Source: Leptolyngbya sp. SIOISBB | Lineage (GTDB): Bacteria > Cyanobacteriota > Cyanobacteriia > Phormidesmidales > Phormidesmidaceae | Assembly: GCA_010671905.1 (NCBI GenBank) | Contig: JAAHII010000001.1 | Location: 3,782,001-3,846,000 of the forward strand | Length of the DNA: 64,000 bases | Reading direction: 5' to 3' | In this document: positions 508 to 45,856 of the stretch, in pieces | Layout: each line of letters opens with the position of its first letter | Numbering within the stretch: position 1 is the first letter of the stretch | Notes under the pieces: generated by a model | The model's database searches: none | What the model was told of the DNA's origin: nothing | What the model saw: only the letters and a program-made list of their open reading frames with translations | Translations under genes and position numbers: made by a program

Positions 508-2868
508 TCAGCGATGGCTCTCGGCTAACTGCGACATCACCACGGGCAAAACGGGGCATGGCGGCAACTCAGTCAAGTTGTCAGGATTGCTCCAGGTAAA
601 GGGAGCGGTATGGGCCGCAGAGATCCACAGCAAGCGTTTGGCCCGGGTCATCGCTACGTAGAGCAGGCGAAACTCTTCAGCGGTTTTCAAGTTTTTGGCC
701 TGCTGCCATGCCGTTAATAAATCAGGGATCGGTGCGGCATTTTGCTCGGCATGGGTCTGGGCTCGGATTTGCGCGCGAGCCACCTCAGGCAGACTAAAGT
801 CGCCTAAAAACGTCTGCTGAGGCGGCACCCATAAGTTGCCTGGAATCGTCCGCTCGTGCAGAAAGGGCAGAAAGACGACATCCCAATCCAACCCCTTGGC
901 CTTGTGCATGGTCAAGATCGTAAGCTGCCCACGTCGGGTGTAGCGATCATCGCGATCTTCGGTATCTACTGCCTCGAAGCGTTCGGAGCCGACAATTTCC
1001 TGCAGCGTTTGAATCATCGCTCGTAGAGTATTGTCTTCGCGGTTTTGCTGCGCGAGTCGGGCGGCGAGCTTGTCGGCGGTGGCGAGTTCGCTTTGGTTGT
1101 AGCCCAGAGTTAACCCAGCAAAGGGAATGAGGTGATAGGGCGGTAATTCAAACCGCGATCGCAGCAGCCCCGTACACAATCGTCGCGCTTGCTCGGCAGC
1201 CTCGGTCAAGGGTGGCGCATCCAACGGCCCCGGATACATAAATTGTTCGGGTTGTTTGGCCAGCAGATTCAGATCTTGCGAGGGCATACGCTGGCGATCC
1301 ACAAAGACTCGCAGCAGTGCCTTCAGGCGATCGGGTGAATGGGGCCGCTCAATGAACTGCAGAATGGTCAGCATTTCTGAGGGCACATGGGTTTGGCGCT
1401 CTTGTTCGCCAACGTCGTAGATTTGCAGGCCGGTGCTGAGTAAATCGACGCCGAGGGTCTCTGGATCATGCAACAGCTGATTGATAAAGCGCCCCTGACG
1501 ATGCTCACGCACCAAGATCGCCTGACTCAACTGGGGATCAGCTTCGTGTAAGGCCAGCGATCGCTGGGCCAGCAGCCGGACTGTTTCCGTCACCGTGGCG
1601 GGACGATAAAACTCGACGCCGCCACTCATCGGAGCTGGGTTGGCATCCGGCTGGGGATCATCGGACGGCACGCGATGGATGGTCTGGAAGCGGAAGGGGG
1701 CGACAGTGCCCGCTAAGCCAGCTTCGTTGACCCAGGCCAGCATAGCGTTAGCCGCCGCCATAATCATGGGACTACTGCGGCCCGCTTGGTCCATCACCAC
1801 GAGACGGTTTTGGCGTTGAGCGCGATCGCAAAACTGGTTAAAAAAGACCGGATCGGCGGGCGTAAACGTCGAGTTGATGGCCTGGTTGGGATCGCCTACC
1901 CGCACTAAATTCAGCGCCCCTGTGGCATCGTCGACATCGCGCGCCAATGTTTCTAAAAGCTGAGTTTGCAATGGTGACGAGTCCTGGGCCTCATCTTCGA
2001 ACACGGCAAACACGCGCTTTTGCCAAAATCGCTGCGCTTCATCGTCGGCTAACACCTGTAATGCTGCCAAGATCATGTCGTCATAGTCAATCAGGTGTCG
2101 TTGTGCCAGCAATTGTTGGTACTGGTCATACAGTCCCGCCGCGACCGCCAACACGTCATAATCTTCGACGTCGTCGGTCAGAGTGCGGGTGACTGAGTCA
2201 GCCAGTTGCGATAGTGCTGGTGGCATCAGGCCGGAGCTTTTGGCCTCATGAATGACTGTGGTCGCGAGGTTGGGCAAAATTTCTGTCCGCAAGGTAGACT
2301 GCCGCCGCAACCGCTCAGTTTCCTCGCCGTCAAACTGTCGTCCTTCAATCAAGCGCTGATATAAGGCCGGATGGTCGGCCATCCACTTTTCTACGCAGGT
2401 GCGGATTAAGCGGTTGTTTTGCGTCGGGGTGAGCAACGTCAGCGTATCGAGGCTGATGCCCGATAGGTCGGGATTGCGGGTGGCAATGGTGAGCGCCAGA
2501 CCATGCAGCGTATACACGACAAAGCTGTTGAGAGGATATTGCAGCGATCGCAAATGGCGCTGCACCTTGGCTTTCAGATTCGCGGCTGCCGACCGGGTGA
2601 ACGTGACGAGCACTAACTGACGTTTGACATTGAGTTCATGGCGCACAATCGCGATCGCGGCACCGGCAGCCATCCCCGTCGATTTACCCGCACCGGGAAC
2701 TGCCGATACGGCTAGCGGGCCACCCTGCCAGTCGGCCAACGCCCGCTGCCCCGCCCGCAGACTCGCTCGAATCTCAGTTAATTGCGCGGTTCTGTCAGAC
2801 GCGATCGCCCCTGCCATCCCGATCATCCTTATGCCAAAAGTACTTTTGTCCCCCTGGGCGATTGGCAC
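508..2868 (-). CDS. UvrD/Rep-type superfamily 1 ATP-dependent DNA helicase
   Basis: A 786-residue SF1 helicase. Visible motifs in order: Walker A AVSAVPGAGKST (about residues 53-64), Walker B/motif II VFEDEAQDSS, motif III VGDPNQAIN, motif V LTMHKAKGLDWDVVFLP and motif VI RLLYVAMTRAKRLLW near the C-terminus. These are the UvrD/PcrA/Rep signatures, so it should translocate on single-stranded DNA in repair or replication restart. The DEAQ box (rather than DEXQ variants with Y) and moderate length suggest a cyanobacterial UvrD-like paralogue rather than canonical PcrA. Several Met codons lie within the first 20 residues, so the exact start is uncertain. It is transcribed away from the neighbouring SGNH gene's 3' end on the same strand. 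Confidence 0.88.
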   Translation of the reverse strand: MPIAQGDKSTFGIRMIGMAGAIASDRTAQLTEIRASLRAGQRALADWQGGPLAVSAVPGAGKSTGMAAGAAIAIVRHELNVKRQLVLVTFTRSAAANLKAKVQRHLRSLQYPLNSFVVYTLHGLALTIATRNPDLSGISLDTLTLLTPTQNNRLIRTCVEKWMADHPALYQRLIEGRQFDGEETERLRRQSTLRTEILPNLATTVIHEAKSSGLMPPALSQLADSVTRTLTDDVEDYDVLAVAAGLYDQYQQLLAQRHLIDYDDMILAALQVLADDEAQRFWQKRVFAVFEDEAQDSSPLQTQLLETLARDVDDATGALNLVRVGDPNQAINSTFTPADPVFFNQFCDRAQRQNRLVVMDQAGRSSPMIMAAANAMLAWVNEAGLAGTVAPFRFQTIHRVPSDDPQPDANPAPMSGGVEFYRPATVTETVRLLAQRSLALHEADPQLSQAILVREHRQGRFINQLLHDPETLGVDLLSTGLQIYDVGEQERQTHVPSEMLTILQFIERPHSPDRLKALLRVFVDRQRMPSQDLNLLAKQPEQFMYPGPLDAPPLTEAAEQARRLCTGLLRSRFELPPYHLIPFAGLTLGYNQSELATADKLAARLAQQNREDNTLRAMIQTLQEIVGSERFEAVDTEDRDDRYTRRGQLTILTMHKAKGLDWDVVFLPFLHERTIPGNLWVPPQQTFLGDFSLPEVARAQIRAQTHAEQNAAPIPDLLTAWQQAKNLKTAEEFRLLYVAMTRAKRLLWISAAHTAPFTWSNPDNLTELPPCPVLPVVMSQLAESHR

Positions 2869-2988
2869 TCTTGCCTAGGGGATTGGCTCAATCTTAAGCG
2901 AAAGCTTCAGCCACGATGGCAACGAAATTCGAGATTGGGTCAAGCATCTGACCCCCCACTCTAAGACTTTCACACTTCGTGCCAGCGA

Positions 2989-4224
2989 CTAAAGAGCGCG
3001 AGCCAAAATCGCCTGCTGCCACAAGGCATATCCTTGAGGATTCAGATGCAGGCCGTCGGTGGTCAAGTCAGGACGCAAATGCCCCCATTCATCGCGGAAG
3101 GAGGGATGGAGATCGCGATACTCGACGGCACTTTGCTGGGTCATGCGGGCTAGTTGGGTATTGAGCGATCGCACCCGGTCGTTCCCAATCTCGGCTCGTC
3201 GGGTCGGCAACACAGAATAGACAATAATCTGCGCTTGAGGATGCTGCCGCTGCAAAATTCTGACCGTGCGCTGCAAGTTACTCACAATCTGCGCTTCGGG
3301 CACACCATTTTTGAGATCATTAGCGCCCGCCATCAGGTGAATCGTGGTGGCGCGAGTGTGCGCAAAGGTACTGACTCGCTGCAAAATGCCAGCCGTGGTA
3401 TCGCCCGAAATGCTCTGATTGAGCCAGAGGCGATCGCGGGGCAGCATCTCCGGCGGTAGCCAGAGCCCAAAGGAATCGCCCACGATAACTTCTAAGCGGT
3501 TGCTGCCCTGCCCTCTCGACATCGCCCGAGCTTCTTGTGAGAGTAACCCTTTCCAGTCTTCGTAGGTGGGTTGTCGACTGACTGTCCGCCACTGATTAGC
3601 GTAAGCGTCGGGGGCCAGGCGTGTATACGATCGACCTGATTGTAGAGCGAGCTGGCGTTGGCGATAGAGCTCTGAGCCATTGCTAGGTCGTACGGTGTTG
3701 CTCGGCAATCGCACGGGCGTGGCAGGGTTAGCAGCGATCGCTGGGGGGGAACTGAATTGCGGTGGCTGAGCGACTGGTGCCGGGAGTGAACGCTGAGCCG
3801 TGGGTAAATTGAGGGGCATTGGGTGGGTTACCGGCAACGGGGCAGCGGCAGTTTGGGCGGGTGGGCTGGCAGGGGCCACGTCAGACAAGACACAGACCGC
3901 TAAGCGATTGGCATCGGCGCGCTCGCAGAGTTCAGTAAACTGGGGATTGCCTCTAGTGACGGCTGGGGCGATCGCAGCGCTGTCACGGGTAACATCCGCG
4001 CCTGCTGCTTCTCGTTCTGAGGGGGCAATGGTTGCTGGTGGAGTAATGGTCGGTACGTCCGTCGTGGTGTCGCAATCACTCACGAGAGATTGCATTAACA
4101 AGAGACAAACTTCAGCAGCCATAATCGACACCTTTGCAGCATGTTTTTTTTGACAAGTCTTAGGGCGGCAATTCAGGACGATTTTTCTAAAGGACTGTAA
4201 AGTTATCGATCCGTATGGAACCAA
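2989..4224 (-). CDS. SGNH/GDSL-type hydrolase
   Basis: The C-terminal half carries SGNH esterase blocks: VIVGDSFGLWLP (block I, nucleophile Ser in GDS), GDTTAGIL (block II, Gly), HLMAGANDLKNG (block III, GxND) and DGLHLNPQGYALW (block V, catalytic Asp and His). These enzymes hydrolyse esters or acyl/acetyl groups on lipids or polysaccharides. The N-terminal ~170 residues are low-complexity, Pro/Ala-rich and look like a linker, so the protein may be exported and tethered. The N-terminal 34 residues of the longest reading frame look unnatural. An internal Met (MAAEVCLLLMQSLV) followed by a short hydrophobic run is a plausible alternative start. Substrate unknown. Confidence 0.75.
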   Translation of the reverse strand: MVPYGSITLQSFRKIVLNCRPKTCQKKHAAKVSIMAAEVCLLLMQSLVSDCDTTTDVPTITPPATIAPSEREAAGADVTRDSAAIAPAVTRGNPQFTELCERADANRLAVCVLSDVAPASPPAQTAAAPLPVTHPMPLNLPTAQRSLPAPVAQPPQFSSPPAIAANPATPVRLPSNTVRPSNGSELYRQRQLALQSGRSYTRLAPDAYANQWRTVSRQPTYEDWKGLLSQEARAMSRGQGSNRLEVIVGDSFGLWLPPEMLPRDRLWLNQSISGDTTAGILQRVSTFAHTRATTIHLMAGANDLKNGVPEAQIVSNLQRTVRILQRQHPQAQIIVYSVLPTRRAEIGNDRVRSLNTQLARMTQQSAVEYRDLHPSFRDEWGHLRPDLTTDGLHLNPQGYALWQQAILARAL

Positions 4225-4339
4225 CTCATCAGAAATTCTGTGCTATTGCGTCTCATTGGTCTAATCCAGCTGTGCTCATCGGTGCTTTACGAGCGTCGTC
4301 TTGACGGCAGAAAGTACTGGACCTCTTGCGATCGCAAAG

Positions 4340-4369
4340 TTGACATCCTTCTTCTTGATGGAGAATAAT
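4340..4369 (+). promoter_or_regulatory. Candidate sigma-70 promoter of rplU-rpmA
   Basis: A consensus TTGACA (4340-4345) is followed after 17 bp by GAATAA (4363-4368), or after 18 bp by AATAAT (4364-4369). This predicts a transcript start near 4375 and a leader of about 80 nt before rplU. No other promoter-like pair as good is seen upstream. Confidence 0.5.
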
Positions 4370-4397
4370 GGAGGTTCGTGTGTAAACCCGCTCGGAT

Positions 4398-4430
4398 CAG
4401 GCTGCTTCAAAACAGCAAGGCTGTTGCCTG
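4398..4430 (+). promoter_or_regulatory. Hairpin in the rplU 5' leader
   Basis: CAGGC (4398-4402) pairs with GCCTG (4426-4430), enclosing a 6-bp helix AACAGC/GCTGTT (4411-4416 with 4420-4425) with loop AAG and an 8-nt bulge on the 5' side. The hairpin ends about 23 nt before the rplU start codon. Leaders that autoregulate r-protein operons look like this, but a role here is inference. Confidence 0.35.
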
Positions 4431-4453
4431 TACGGCGATCGCAAGGAAAATCA

Positions 4454-4861
4454 ATGACTTACGCAATTATTGAAGCCAGTGGCAAGCAGTTTCGGGTCGA
4501 GCCAGGCCGGTTTTATGACTTTGACCGCATGGCGGTAGATGAAGACGGCAACGTTGATATCGATCAGGTGCTGCTCGTCTCCCACGATGGTGAAACGATG
4601 GTGGGTCAGCCTCATGTTGAGGGCGCGTCGGTTTCTGGCACGGTGATGCGTCATCTAAGAGGGCGCAAAATCATCGTTTACAAAATGAAGCCCAAGAAAA
4701 AGACCCGTAAGAAGCGGGGTCATCGTCAAGAGCTGACCCGCTTAATGATTGACACTATCAGCGTCAACGGTAAGGTTTTGGCGGGTGAAACGGCAGCGGC
4801 AGCAGCAGTCGTCGCTGATCAGCCAGCGTCAGTGGCACAAGAAACGACGGAAGAAGAATAA
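4454..4861 (+). CDS. rplU: 50S ribosomal protein L21
   Basis: A 135-residue protein starting [18 protein letters not shown] with the L21 hallmarks [40 protein letters not shown] and the terminal R-x-T segment around [12 protein letters not shown]21 binds 23S rRNA domain VI in the large subunit. The start at 4454 is chosen because it begins the conserved N-terminus and has AAGGAAAA just upstream; the reading frame is open for a further 51 codons upstream but those residues are not L21-like. After the conserved core there is an Ala/Glu-rich tail typical of cyanobacterial L21. It is followed by rpmA after 33 bp, the standard L21-L27 operon. Confidence 0.96.
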
Positions 4862-4894
4862 ATCTCATGTTGATTTAGTTGAAGGTTAAAGCTC

Positions 4895-5158
4895 ATGGCT
4901 CATAAGAAAGGTACCGGTAGTACTCGTAACGGTCGCGATTCCAATTCCAAACGCTTAGGTGTTAAGCGCTACGGTGGTCAAATCGTGACGGCAGGCAGCA
5001 TTCTCATTCGTCAGCGGGGCACCAAGTTCCACCCTGGCAATAATGTGGGTCGTGGTGGTGATGACACACTGTTTGCTTTGGTTGACGGTATTGTGACCTT
5101 TGAGCGCAAAGGTAAGAATCGCAAGAAAGTGAGTGTGTATCCATCAGCAACTGTGTAG
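4895..5158 (+). CDS. rpmA: 50S ribosomal protein L27
   Basis: 87 residues beginning [20 protein letters not shown], the near-invariant L27 N-terminus that reaches toward the peptidyl-transferase centre, followed by [19 protein letters not shown] and [17 protein letters not shown]. There is no N-terminal extension needing cleavage, unlike Firmicute L27. It is second in the rplU-rpmA operon and is followed by a strong intrinsic terminator. Confidence 0.97.
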
Positions 5159-5184
5159 ACGCTGAGACACAGTTTGGGTTTGGC

Positions 5185-5216
5185 AAAAGATGGCTGATAT
5201 CAGCCATCTTTTTTGT
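5185..5216 (+). terminator. Intrinsic terminator after rpmA
   Basis: Bases 5185-5212 form a perfect 28-bp palindrome (GATGGCTGAT with its complement in the core, flanked by A4 and T4). The T run extends to 5214 and is followed by GTTGTT. It lies 27 bp after the rpmA stop. Confidence 0.85.
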
Positions 5217-5319
5217 TGTTTGCTTGTTGTTTTTGCCCTGTCAGGGTTGACTCATGTGAGCTTCACGCCTCCAGTGACTGAAATCTGGCACATTGGGAGG
5301 ATGCGGATTCGGGTAATTG

Positions 5320-7092
5320 ATGCTGGATTTTAGGAATACCAATACAGTTTGGGCGTCGGTACTAGTAGAAACGTTGGCGCGTCTGGGATTGACGACGGCG
5401 GTGATCTCGCCAGGGTCGCGCTCCACGCCCTTAGTAGTGGCTTGTGCTAGCCATCCGCAGATCCAAGCGATCCCGATATTGGATGAGCGATCGGCGAGCT
5501 TTTTTGCTCTGGGTGTGGCTAAAGCGAGTGGCCAGCCGACGGTTTTGGTGTGTACGTCCGGCACTGCAGGCGCGAACTATTTCCCCGCTGTGATTGAGGC
5601 CTATGAAAGCAACGTTCCCTTACTGATTCTGACGGCAGATCGCCCACCAGAATTACGCGACTGTGCTTCTGGCCAAACGATTGATCAGCAAAAACTATTT
5701 GGCGATTACGTGCGAGGTTATCGCGAACTAGCCTTGCCCGAAACGACCATTCCACAACTGCGCTATTTGCGGCAGGTCATGGCTCAGATGTGGCAGCAGA
5801 GTCAGTTTCCTGTGGCGGGGCCGGTGCATATCAATTGTCCCTTTCGGGACCCACTGGCCCCGATCGCTGAGCCCCATAGTGATTTGCAGCAAACCCTGGT
5901 TGCCCAGGTGAACTCGACGTTCTTTAGCCACCTGACAACTCAGACTGCGCCCACCCTGCTGGCGACACCTACGATGGCATTGCCGACAGCGTTAGGGCAG
6001 ACTGAGCGCGGTCTGATTATTGCCGGACCCCATTCCACCGCTAGTGCGGCGGCGGATCGGGTCTATTGTGAGGCGATCTCGACCCTCGCTAAACAGTTAG
6101 GTTGGCCGGTGCTGGCAGACGGTCTCTCGCCTTTAAGAAATCACGCTCAGCTGAATCCTCACTTAATCAGCACTTACGACTTACTCCTGCGACATCAATC
6201 TCACGCGGCTGCCCTGGTGCCAGAGCAGGTGCTACAACTAGGACCTTTACCGACGAGCAAGGTATTGCGCCAATGGTTAGCGACGATCGACCCCCAACGC
6301 TGGATTCTTGACTGTAGTGGCCGCAATCGCGATCCCCTCCATGGTCAAGCGATGCTTTTGCCCATGACGATCGCGGCCTTAATCGCGCAGTTAACCTCAC
6401 GGACGTTATCCACAAATTTGGCAGACTCGGCCTATGGGCGACAGTGGCAGCATCGTGACGCGATCGCCTGTCAACGCCTCGGAGAAAAATTGGCGACCTT
6501 AGAACCGCTCTTTGAGGCCAAGCTAAGTTGGCTACTACCGAATCTCATGTCGCCAAAGACCCCTTTGATGATTGCGAACAGTATGCCGGTACGGGATGTC
6601 GAGTGGTTTTGGCCACTTAACGATCGTGGTATCAGGCCCTACTTTAGTCGAGGGGCGAACGGCATTGACGGTACGCTCTCGACGGCTATGGGAGTCGCTC
6701 ATCATCATGGTCAAGCGGTACTGCTCACCGGGGATTTGGCGCTCTTGCACGACAGCAACGGCTTTTTGAATGCCCGGATGCGCTCGGGCCATTTGACCAT
6801 TTTGCTGATCAATAATCAGGGGGGTGGCATTTTTGAGAGCTTACCAATTGCTCAGTTTGATCCCCCATTTGAGAAATTTTTTGCAACTCCACAGCAAGTT
6901 GACTTCGCTGCCCTCGCGACGGTTCATCAGATTGACTACGAGCAAATTACAACCTGGGAAATGCTTGCTGATCGCCTATCCGAGTTACCGACAACTGGGG
7001 TCCGACTGTTAGAGCTGCAGTGCGATCGCAAACGTGATGCCCAATTGCGGTCAACCCTCCTGGAATCAGCGGGAGATTTCACGCTGGATTGA
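5320..7092 (+). CDS. menD: 2-succinyl-5-enolpyruvyl-6-hydroxy-3-cyclohexene-1-carboxylate synthase (MenD)
   Basis: A 590-residue ThDP enzyme that condenses isochorismate with 2-oxoglutarate in the menaquinone/phylloquinone route; in cyanobacteria the end product is the photosystem I quinone. Seen in sequence: the N-terminal substrate motif AVISPGSRSTPL, the MenD-typical LILTADRPPELRDCASGQTIDQ, and the C-terminal ThDP/Mg motif TGDLALLHDSNGF followed by INNQGGGIFESLP. The ATG at 5320 is preceded in frame by a TTG at 5317. The gene converges on the Xaa-Pro aminopeptidase gene with only 68 bp between stops and no clear T-tailed terminator. Confidence 0.95.
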   Translation: MLDFRNTNTVWASVLVETLARLGLTTAVISPGSRSTPLVVACASHPQIQAIPILDERSASFFALGVAKASGQPTVLVCTSGTAGANYFPAVIEAYESNVPLLILTADRPPELRDCASGQTIDQQKLFGDYVRGYRELALPETTIPQLRYLRQVMAQMWQQSQFPVAGPVHINCPFRDPLAPIAEPHSDLQQTLVAQVNSTFFSHLTTQTAPTLLATPTMALPTALGQTERGLIIAGPHSTASAAADRVYCEAISTLAKQLGWPVLADGLSPLRNHAQLNPHLISTYDLLLRHQSHAAALVPEQVLQLGPLPTSKVLRQWLATIDPQRWILDCSGRNRDPLHGQAMLLPMTIAALIAQLTSRTLSTNLADSAYGRQWQHRDAIACQRLGEKLATLEPLFEAKLSWLLPNLMSPKTPLMIANSMPVRDVEWFWPLNDRGIRPYFSRGANGIDGTLSTAMGVAHHHGQAVLLTGDLALLHDSNGFLNARMRSGHLTILLINNQGGGIFESLPIAQFDPPFEKFFATPQQVDFAALATVHQIDYEQITTWEMLADRLSELPTTGVRLLELQCDRKRDAQLRSTLLESAGDFTLD

Positions 7093-43065: not shown

Positions 43066-44133
43066 TCAATCTAGCGGTTTGCAGGCGACGACAGCGTCAT
43101 CAGATAAAATAGCTCCTGCCGCTATTGGATCAAAGCCTGCTGGAAATAGCGTCCCTTCGTTGTAGATTGCCCCATCAAAATCTGCCCCATCAAGAATAGA
43201 ACCTCTTAAATTAGTGTTTCTAATATCAGCACCTCTGAGATTAGTATGAGCTAAATTAGTTCTAACAAAGCGAGCATTAATAAGACATGCTTGAGCAAGA
43301 CTTGCGTAAGTTAAATTAGAGCGGCCTAAGTTAGCATTTTCAAGAATTGCATAATCAAGAATTGTCCTTGAAAAGTCTCCTAAAATATGCGAGTCGCTGA
43401 TATCAATGCCCTCTAAATTCTGATCTGTCAAGTCTAATGCAGTGCCATCAACTCCGATTGCCGAAGCGTAGGGTGCTAAAAAATAGACGCCATCTTCTGG
43501 AAAGTGAAAGCCTTCTGGGAATTTTGTGTGAGCATCGTATATAACGTTCTCAAAAGAAGCTGAATTCAAGTCAGCACCGGTTAAATCTGCACCCAAAAGG
43601 GTTACGCGACCAAACTTTGCATGTTCGAAATTCACATTAGATAAATTTGAGTTCGAAAAGTTAACTTCTATTAAATTGCTGTAATTAAAGTTCGAGCTAT
43701 CTAGATTGGAATTCCTAAAGAGTCCTCCAAGAATTTCTGAATTCTGGAAGTTTACTCCAATTAGACTGGCATTGTCTATGAATACTCTTCTTAAGCCAAT
43801 CCCCTCTAGATTTGCCGAATCAAGAATCGAATCTGAAAGATCAGAATCCAATATATAAGCATCTCGAAGATATGCACTCGTCAAATTACTTTCTATAAAT
43901 ACGGAATACTCTATTCGCGCTTCTTTCATGAAAGCATTTAACAAATCAGCTCTAGAAAGATCGGTCTCGGCGATCAAACAGGGAGCACAGGTTCGTGTCC
44001 GAAGAAAGTGCTCAATCTCTTCAGAGGTTGTCGGTCTTAAGTAGTCAATTGATGACGCTAGACTGAGATTACCTAATGCAATTGGTAATAGCAGAAAAGG
44101 AATCGAGACTTGAAAGACATGTAATGTTTTCAT
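43066..44133 (-). CDS. Exported pentapeptide-repeat protein
   Basis: 355 residues from MKTLHVFQVSIPFLLLPIA, which begins a signal peptide ending near LSLASS. Two blocks of pentapeptide repeats (A[D/N]LxX type, for example NSNLDSSNFNYSNLIEVNF and LAHTNLRGADIRNTNLRGS) form right-handed beta-helices, separated by a non-repeat linker. Role unknown; likely periplasmic. The gene is visibly richer in A/T than its neighbours. The frame is open further upstream to 44238 and beyond, but those codons encode the C-terminus of a transposase remnant, so 44133 is the sensible start. Confidence 0.75.
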   Translation of the reverse strand: MKTLHVFQVSIPFLLLPIALGNLSLASSIDYLRPTTSEEIEHFLRTRTCAPCLIAETDLSRADLLNAFMKEARIEYSVFIESNLTSAYLRDAYILDSDLSDSILDSANLEGIGLRRVFIDNASLIGVNFQNSEILGGLFRNSNLDSSNFNYSNLIEVNFSNSNLSNVNFEHAKFGRVTLLGADLTGADLNSASFENVIYDAHTKFPEGFHFPEDGVYFLAPYASAIGVDGTALDLTDQNLEGIDISDSHILGDFSRTILDYAILENANLGRSNLTYASLAQACLINARFVRTNLAHTNLRGADIRNTNLRGSILDGADFDGAIYNEGTLFPAGFDPIAAGAILSDDAVVACKPLD

Positions 44134-45164
44134 GCTATAGCAATCCATGGATAGATCTGTGTAGGCAGTGAAGGCATGGTCGACGACCTGTCTAAACGAC
44201 TCGCCCGATTGACTCTGTTGCCGCATCTGGTTCTTCAAAACAAGCCACTGATATTCAATGGGATGTAAATCGAATGAGTAAGTAGCTGGGCTAATTCAGA
44301 TGTAGGATAGGTAAAACCTCCGGCATGGCTTTGCTAAAGCGATAGCGTAACCCATGCAGGCGTCGGGTTTCGTTCTTCAACAACAACCTACTTTCTTGTA
44401 TTTAATTGGGTCTTCCTACTTAAGGGGGCAAATACAATAAGTAACCCTCCGCTTGTTGGATGAAGGCTTCAACGCGTTCGCCTTTGTGAAACGAGACATT
44501 GTCACAAAGGCCGACACTGCCCTACGGCAGTGTCGGCAACAGTTGTTCTCTAACTACGTTGCAAAGACGAGGCGATTACAGTAGCCCTCATCGGTCGATC
44601 GTGCCACGAGTCGATGTTGATGCCAAGCGGCCATCAAGCTCACTCGTTCGATCCGATGGTCATGGCGCTGGCGGGTCCGCGTTCCCCTTTCAGCCAACAG
44701 TCATAGCCATAGTTTTCAGTGTTGTAGAGCCCGCCTCGTTGAGATGCACCCGTGGGCAGGTCTCGAATTGCGCTAACTCAGTGTCGTAGCTTTGGCGTTT
44801 GGCCAGGTCCCTTTATCGGTAAAGATCGCTCTTTTTTTCGCGTGAAGCCAATCCGTGGGAGCGCCCGCCCAATCGTATCTTCACTAATTCCCTGTGGCCA
44901 CAGCTGAGCCATTTCAGCCTGCGTCTTGTCCCCATGCGTCTCGGCAAATGCGCAAAACGCTTCCCAGTCGGTAATTTTATGACTGTGGCTCCGTTGGTAG
45001 CCTTGCTTAACAGCGACCTCCCCGCTCGCACGATACCGTTTATGCCACTCGGTTAGGGTGGTTATGCCAATGCCCAGAAATCGACTGACAGAGGCTTTGG
45101 AGTGACCCGATTCCAGCGCGGCGATCGCTTTCTGGCGCCGGTCGAGACTATCGGGGGCAGGCAT
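44134..45164 (-). pseudogene. Degenerate IS630-family transposase, interrupted by a MITE-like insert
   Basis: The N-terminal helix-turn-helix part is intact from MPAPDSLDRRQKAIAALESG (45164), with LGIGITTLTEWHKRYRASGE. The frame shifts around 44809-44811 (GGG run). The DDE domain follows in another frame as YDTELAQFETCPRVHLNEAG, where the first catalytic Asp reads Asn, with at least two in-frame stops. Then comes VSFHKGERVEAFIQQAEG, LLYLPP, a 140-bp insert, and finally YSFDLHPIEYQWLVLKNQM carrying the last acidic residue. The tail runs without a stop into the pentapeptide gene. Clearly inactive. Confidence 0.75.
44281..44420. mobile_element. 140-bp MITE-like element with TA target duplication
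   Basis: Flanked by TA on both sides (44279-44280 and 44421-44422). Its ends are inverted (AGTAG...CTACT; TAAGTAG...CTACTTA with the duplicated TA). Deleting it with one TA restores the uninterrupted transposase codons LPPYSFD. The interior contains GGGTTTCGTTCTTCAAC followed by AACCTAC, resembling a repeat common in cyanobacterial genomes. TA duplication is the habit of IS630/Tc1 transposases. Confidence 0.7.
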
Positions 45165-45856
45165 CGGCAGGGCTCTAAACTTTCGATCCCTTGAACCGAT
45201 CAGACCTTTGTACGGATGGCTATAAATGTGAATGGTTGCTGAGGACAGTAGGAACTGCAACATGTGGGGTGGGTATTATGAGCCAATTCAGCGTGTCCTC
45301 ACTCAATTTCCCGCTGCCATATGCGTCAGATCACAACGAGGACTCGATGTTAGTCACCGCTTTTGGGTGGGCAATCTTGGAACATAAATGCATTGAGACG
45401 ATTTGGAACTTGTATTACAGCTGCAAGCCATCGTGTTTAGTCAAGCGGTCAGACTCTTTCCTTCCGTTTCTTTTAGCAAACAGACAGCACACAACCAAAG
45501 CCCTGCCATTACGATGGCAGGGCTTTTTCGTTGACATTGGTGAATAACACTCAAAGTTAAGGTGATTGCAGGCTACGAGCTAATAAATGTGCTCCTGCTA
45601 GGCGACTGCGAGTCAGCTGAAGACCAAGCAGATCACTTGCAGCCATGAGGACTGGTTTCGAACATGAAAAAACTGTCTTCAGCACCTTTGCTAACAGCCA
45701 TCAATCACAACTCCATCATCAGAACTGCCGAGGCCAAGGCCACGACCGTCCGGCTTTCTGTAGGAAAAACATGCTGATGCAGGGCAACGATACTTGCTCA
45801 GTCCCAGCCCCCTGCCCCAACCCAAATACCAGTAGTCAAGCAGTTGTCTGAATGGT
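45165..45856. other. Intergenic region with an orphan terminator
   Basis: About 690 bp between the transposase remnant and rsmG. The only clear element is the terminator at 45497-45528. A 118-codon frame over 45191-45547 is not protein-like and runs through the terminator. Confidence 0.4.
45497..45528 (+). terminator. Orphan intrinsic terminator on the plus strand
   Basis: AAAGCCCTGCCAT (45497-45509) pairs with ATGGCAGGGCTTT (45514-45526), 13 bp perfect with a TACG loop and five Ts. There is no plus-strand gene upstream for more than 2.5 kb, so it may end an unannotated small RNA or antisense transcript. Confidence 0.7.

Follow-up and report, generated by a model that had tools for sequence, protein, structure and literature searches.

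A TA-flanked miniature element in a dead IS630 transposase gene of Leptolyngbya carries a GTAG-REP pair shared with an unrelated MITE family

The 140-bp insert at positions 44281–44420 of the window (the whole 64,000-nucleotide stretch of Leptolyngbya sp. SIOISBB DNA that was analysed) is an ordinary IS630-type MITE whose interior is a REP pair that an unrelated family of MITEs has in much the same form. It is probably an old insertion. The features of the locus are:

44281–44420, no strand assigned: MITE, 140 bp without its flanking TAs, defined by sequence, genome copies and alignment
44279–44280, no strand assigned: left TA target duplication, from the sequence
44421–44422, no strand assigned: right TA target duplication, from the sequence
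44279–44301, plus strand: end B (TAAGTAGCTGGGCTAATTC..), resembling the right end TAAGTAGCTAGGCGCAATTAAAT of a resident IS630 group
44392–44422, minus strand: end A (TAAGTAGGAAGACCCAATTAAATACAAG..), resembling the left end TAAGTAAGCGGTTGGAATTAAATATAAG of the same resident IS630 group
44302–44391, plus strand: interior GTAG-REP pair, 90 bp, with GTAGG at 44302 and CCTAC at 44387–44391
44362–44391, minus strand: second REP of the pair, decayed here, from comparison with related REPs
44138–45222, minus strand: decayed IS630-family element hosting the MITE, with TAs at 44136–44137 and 45223–45224
44778–45263, minus strand: longest transposase ORF still left in the dead IS, with the HTH_Tnp_IS630 region, annotated start outside the IS

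The insert ends in AGTAG..CTACT with a TA on either side, exactly where the initial annotation of this DNA had placed these boundaries (TAs at 44279–44280 and 44421–44422). Joined over one TA, the flanks read ...GYLLYLPPYSFDLHPIEYQWLVLKNQ in a single minus-strand frame that the insert breaks, and the joined transposase continues as LLYLPP/YSFDLHPIEYQW through the insertion point, confirming the earlier claim that removal of the insert and one TA rejoins the codons. What had been called an excision site is the pre-insertion (empty) site: the rejoined codons represent the state before insertion, and no excision event was seen. The view of the insert as a MITE-like element nested in a dead IS630 agrees with its copies, its TAs and the domains of its host, in which the joined 43-residue stretch matches DDE_3 (E 3.6e-7), the N-terminal ORF matches HTH_Tnp_IS630 (E 2.1e-6), and TA-flanked inverted ends of 24 nt, 75% complementary, lie at 44136–44159 and 45201–45224. 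These features make the host remnant a member of the IS630 family, and it extends farther (44138–45222) than the end at 45164 first assigned to it. Searches found no Rfam match at 43900–45400, up to E 1, and no sigma-70-like promoter at 44050–45300, where shuffled sequences average 1.3.

Paralogues of the dead IS630 preserve the target without the insert. The search of the same genome listed 12 places, including the element itself and one 28-bp stretch of itself; five paralogues span the junction (L071, L072 with L077, L076, L078 and L080), none of them contains the MITE, and the alignments of L072 and L076 run ungapped through the junction. L071, L076, L078 and L080 have in common an extra stretch of about 22 bp, a ACCCTTCGGGAAGGCTTCGCCTAC-like palindrome, that neither the window copy nor L072 possesses; in L078 and L080 a single TA close by holds additional, dissimilar inserts of roughly 100 bp. 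Downstream of the dead element on the minus strand is a gene (43066–44133) that by eye is pentapeptide-repeat-like. It probably starts with the ATG at 44133, adjoining the end of the dead IS630, a longer ORF start (44238) lying within the IS; with a start at 44133, its upstream signals would come from IS remnant DNA.

The initial annotation had held that the element is probably repeated, and had named an absence of other copies, or flanks shared beyond the element ends, as signs to the contrary. Searching the 8.34-Mb genome (two contigs) with the element and its TAs (a 144-bp query) gives nine places, the window included, the four best others being 73–86% identical over nearly the full length; the insert is therefore no chance match. 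Seven of the nine are complete or nearly so, and all seven have TA on both sides. Exact TAAGTAG..CTACTTA ends are found in L001 (the window), L003, L004, L005 and L008; L006 has one base changed at one end, the right end of L002 is split by another element, and L007 and L009 are partial or belong to another subfamily. The terminal inverted repeats are imperfect beyond 7–8 bp. Short, non-coding, dispersed in several copies and bounded by terminal inverted repeats, the element has the properties of a MITE. Flanks within 300 bp of the copies are unrelated, except for a 111-bp, 97% inverted repeat common to L002 and L005; this repeat, in opposite orientation in the two right flanks and starting (TA)GGGGCTTGCG beside L002, is separate from the MITE. 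The element that splits L002 is a second MITE-like element of 93 bp (L002:1641–1733; contig C1, about position 1417250), TAAGTAGGTGGACAG..GTCCATGTACTTA, with imperfect inverted ends of about 20 bp, inserted at a TA within the right end of the L002 MITE. The seven copies are 80–92% identical pairwise, which suggests that the family is probably no longer moving in this genome, and nine copies in two genomes of the same genus (one in G002, eight in G003) are 93–100% identical, which suggests more recent movement there. Matches occur in 20 of 59 genomes, this one included, many of them to the interior only.

TA-flanked copies and empty sites, both of which had been proposed as checks, were found, the latter paralogous (above) and orthologous. 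The search for the empty sites of the six other copies covered 59 genomes, the best five candidates per genome being scored for the long joined query. At the locus of L004, the related genome G012 has a single-TA empty site and no MITE, with 402 bp at 86% on the right side and 59 identities over 82 bases on the left, a match that none of 500 shuffles equalled. The MITE is likewise absent from the L003 and L008 loci in G001 and G005, where the spacers have diverged too far for the site to be located. TA duplication together with empty sites that have one TA assigns the MITE to the IS630/Tc1-mariner type.

The genome has 25 places with a DDE_3 domain, and comparison of the MITE ends with the inverted repeats of resident IS630 elements, again as proposed, shows that they resemble the L019 group best of four groups with TAAGTAG ends. 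This group consists of L019, L032/L033 (99.7%) and a truncated copy at C1:6325390 (81%); the IS is 1126 bp long with TAAGTAG ends, TAAGTAAGCGGTTGGAATTAAATATAAG and TAAGTAGCTAGGCGCAATTAAATCTAAA. With relatives down to about 41% protein identity, the group has matches in 30 of 143 genomes at E 1e-20, and TAAGTA is present at both ends in 19 of 30 loci as read by a script that favours TAAGT. Beyond TAAGTAG, MITE and L019-type ends agree at 28–32 of 46 positions in all six ISs tested, and none of 20000 shuffles was as good; with 10–19 of 23 positions matching per end, the ends are similar and not identical, and pairing left with left or left with right yields the same sums (30 versus 30, 28 versus 28 and the like). 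Two other TAAGTAG IS630 groups match the MITE at 16–19 of the 46 positions and a third (L107) at 22–23. L013-type and L104-type elements were rejected as partners, since their ends hardly surpass shuffled sequence in matching the MITE (1042 to 6757 of 20000 shuffles as good). The L107 group, which 168 and 33 of 20000 shuffles equalled and which scores 26 with ends swapped, would be an intermediate candidate on the similarity of its ends. The MITE thus has ends in common, by similarity and not identity, with a presumably autonomous type of element, L019. No single-frame copy of the L019-type partner was found in this genome: L019 has frame shifts at A-runs, which leave the N- and C-terminal transposase parts in different frames, and the two other copies have stops or truncation. 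The two parts are likewise in different frames in L095 of G012; that the frameshift in L019 and L095 is programmed is our guess.

From these comparisons we consider it likely that the MITE was moved in trans by an L019-type IS630 transposase, and that its frame had acquired a REP pair before being copied. In this mechanism, a frame of IS630 type would have gained the GTAG-REP pair by RAYT (Y1, HUH) transposition or by recombination; IS630-type transposases would since have copied frame and pair; and the transposase of the resident L019-type IS630, acting on the MITE ends in trans, would have inserted the element at a TA within a member of a different IS630 group. A type I origin, in which the whole element is an internal deletion of an autonomous IS630 that already held hairpins near its end, would also explain why the ends match the L019 group, and such derivatives exist, since C1:609392–609528 consists of positions 1–59 and 1051–1122 of an L019-type IS. 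It is nevertheless improbable, because the MITE interior has no similarity to L019 beyond the terminal ~30 bp (three MITE copies given, one read fully), and a similar hairpin pair occurs in an unrelated frame. The confinement of similarity to the ends and the pair in the unrelated frame both indicate that the interior was not derived from the L019 IS, and the element accordingly lacks the IS-derived interior of a type I MITE.

The interior consists of two units facing each other, each made up of GTAG and a hairpin, and its tag, stem-loops and GTAGG..CCTAC boundaries characterize a REPIN-like GTAG REP dimer, covariation having been assessed on the first stem. In the window copy, the first hairpin of the interior exceeds that of the 66-bp form in same-genus genomes by about 24 bp. 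Most copies in this genome have about 24 bp more in that hairpin than the 122-bp element in G003, L008 being of the short form, and L005–L007 have a further palindromic stretch in the second hairpin. Among 31 locus-derived sequences (those of equal loop length among 43 distinct first halves; an earlier set had n=14), one pair of the first hairpin is A-U in 18 and U-A in 8, the covariation score exceeds 500 of 500 shuffles, and 80% of cells are paired, as high as in none of 500 shuffles, counts of covariation being inflated by the relatedness of the sequences. Two of the five measures, double-change pairs and extra pair types, are not above shuffles in this set (152 and 118 of 500 as high), and the outermost pair is unpaired in 20 of the 31 sequences. 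The first-hairpin stem thus covaries in part.

A link to RAYT transposases is provided by G010, a genome of the same family and a related genus, in which a 180-residue Y1_Tnp ORF (L279) lies between inverted REP copies that are 90% identical to the second REP; because the same REP flanks it, the gene is called RAYT-like. No REP-flanked RAYT-like gene was found among the three of nine Y1_Tnp places that were read in the Leptolyngbya genome. In G003, a Y1_Tnp gene (L277, contig C187) is surrounded by several hairpins that have a GTAG tag but are of another type (GTAGCGTGGGTC..GACCCACG).

Much the same REP pair is found in a second, unrelated MITE frame. The 66-bp interior (G003 form) was searched in 29 genomes, with matches in 18, and 40 further stretches chosen from those matches were fetched and their flanks read by eye. 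Exact TAAGTAG ends enclose four of them; 13, all from G010 and G038, lie between two arms resembling CTGATTGACTGACA..TGTCAGTCAACCAG; and the other 23 show a single arm, decayed arms or no recognised arm. Exact duplications of 8–10 bp, including CCCTCAAAC, GAGGCGAC, GGTGTTTGC and GTGTCCGTAG, border the second frame (CTGATTGACTGACA) in 8 of 21 listed end pairs, some of these pairs being chance pairings of neighbouring elements' ends. Five of the eight duplicated pairs hold the REP-pair core, and the interiors of L243, L247 and L265 are unrelated to it. Comparison of the two frames gives 94% identity for the core in the best case, and the arms are 36% and 42% identical (shuffled means 42% and 47%); homology starts and stops at GTAGG/CCTAC. 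The initial annotation, sound on the nested insertion, had missed both this interior, which has its origin outside the IS and recurs in an unrelated MITE family, and the further MITE held by another copy. Like palindromes are abundant in these genomes, and separate origins of the hairpin pair in both frames, in genomes favouring such palindromes, might be supposed. Such convergence is the least credible of the alternatives, given sharp boundaries at GTAGG/CCTAC and 94% identity over 66 bp that include the linker and the loops, against 67% for the best of 300 shuffles. On sequence comparison, then, two MITE frames share the REP pair, a result that establishes sharing but falls short of establishing repeated swapping.

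A recent swap of interiors between the frames was hinted at by identities, the G010 frame-2 core being 94, 95 and 88% like three frame-1 cores and 76% like two G038 frame-2 cores, and by a 21-row core tree, in which the frame-2 cores form one group in 0% of 200 bootstrap trees and no branch is well supported. The swap was not adopted: a 16-row tree leaving out F1_G003a, F1_G038b, F1_phage and two unframed cores groups the frame-2 cores in the best tree (support 65/83), and the cores are too short for a choice between the two results. No autonomous partner of the second frame was found. A 1420-bp stretch between frame-2 ends in G010 (L245, contig C755) holds an IS110-family gene; as a source of the frame it was discarded, since the junctions (CAACCT/CTAC) show that the IS110 element, with CT on both sides, was inserted inside a frame-2 MITE. 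Its position within the REP interior fits the role of REPs as known IS targets, as given in the available part of PMC1525189.

Copies framed by TAAGTAG also occur on two Kovacikia plasmids, on one Nostoc plasmid and in Microcystis phages, of which Ma-LMM01 (L282) and MaMV-DC (L283) have the MITE at the same site with nearly identical flanks. In MaMV-DC the second hairpin contains an additional 26-bp palindrome; part of it (GCTCACAGCCA) recurs some 100 bp upstream, a possible sign of template switching. On a Calothrix plasmid a REP pair is enclosed by inverted repeats of TACTGCTCGGTTAAG, a single instance of what may be a third frame, and a composite query matched a second-REP-like unit on Moraxella bovis and Desulforapulum plasmids.

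By analogy with a suggestion made for the REP dimers in palindromes of Anabaena variabilis in the part of PMC3733652 available, the REP pair itself would be the mobile unit and arms such as TAAGTAG a palindromic insertion target; the pair is indeed RAYT-linked and stands without a recognised frame in L219, L220, L222 and L225. We regard this as very unlikely for the element as a whole, because the TA duplications and empty sites coincide with the outer arms instead of the REP boundary, the arms resemble the ends of IS630 elements, and the empty sites indicate that frame and interior arrived together at 44280; it may hold for the first entry of the pair into the frame. Movement of the complete element by an IS630 transposase, the reading preferred here, leaves room for a broader one, which we advance tentatively and with rather less than even confidence: GTAG-REP pairs may be exchangeable cargo of cyanobacterial MITEs, carried in frames of at least two, perhaps three, unrelated transposases (TAAGTAG with TA; CTGATTGACTGACA with 8–10 bp; possibly TACTGCTCGGTTAAG), one hairpin unit spreading by several systems (RAYT and others), plasmids and cyanophages. 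MITEs, REPs and small palindromes are usually catalogued separately, and here one unit belongs to two classes, transposon by its ends and REP by its interior. If this is general, captured REPs would account for some of the interiors, usually of unknown origin, of 'type II' MITEs, and the spread of REPs would not depend on RAYT alone.

Literature searches with four interior sequence strings, and for Ma-LMM01 together with MITE, returned no match. Nezha, reportedly described by Zhou in 2008, is said to be a cyanobacterial MITE flanked by TA, and a 2008 work by Elhai is said to have very small mobile repeats of cyanobacteria as its subject. By description only, Nezha and other cyanobacterial MITEs are like the present element in being short and non-coding with inverted ends. 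The available text of PMC2170065 concerns ISY100 of Synechocystis, a different IS, likened here by mechanism, that shares IS630/Tc1-mariner insertion into TA; its mini-elements, which retain 30 bp at either end, are as mobile as the complete IS, and by analogy the short ends of the MITE could suffice. A 187-nt MITE of Microcystis PCC 7806 likewise has a stem-loop and occurs on chromosomes, plasmids and viral scaffolds, and is unlike the window MITE in that its authors tie it to ISL3, with ends GGCTCTTCG and 8-nt duplications (PMC11448079, as far as available). Among the literature matches listed, REP pairs inside MITE frames were not recognised other than in PMC3733652, the available part of which describes the GTAG-15/16 REPs of cyanobacteria, with the same GTAG tag, short palindrome, dimers and RAYT genes, and places the GTAG-15 dimers of A. 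variabilis within long palindromes, TATAGGA..TCCTATA. The likeness is one of description; here, in contrast, the frame is a transposon, with TA duplication, empty sites and IS630-like ends, and a second frame shares the pair. Because REP dimers in palindromic frames are already reported there, the window element is a variant and not a new category.
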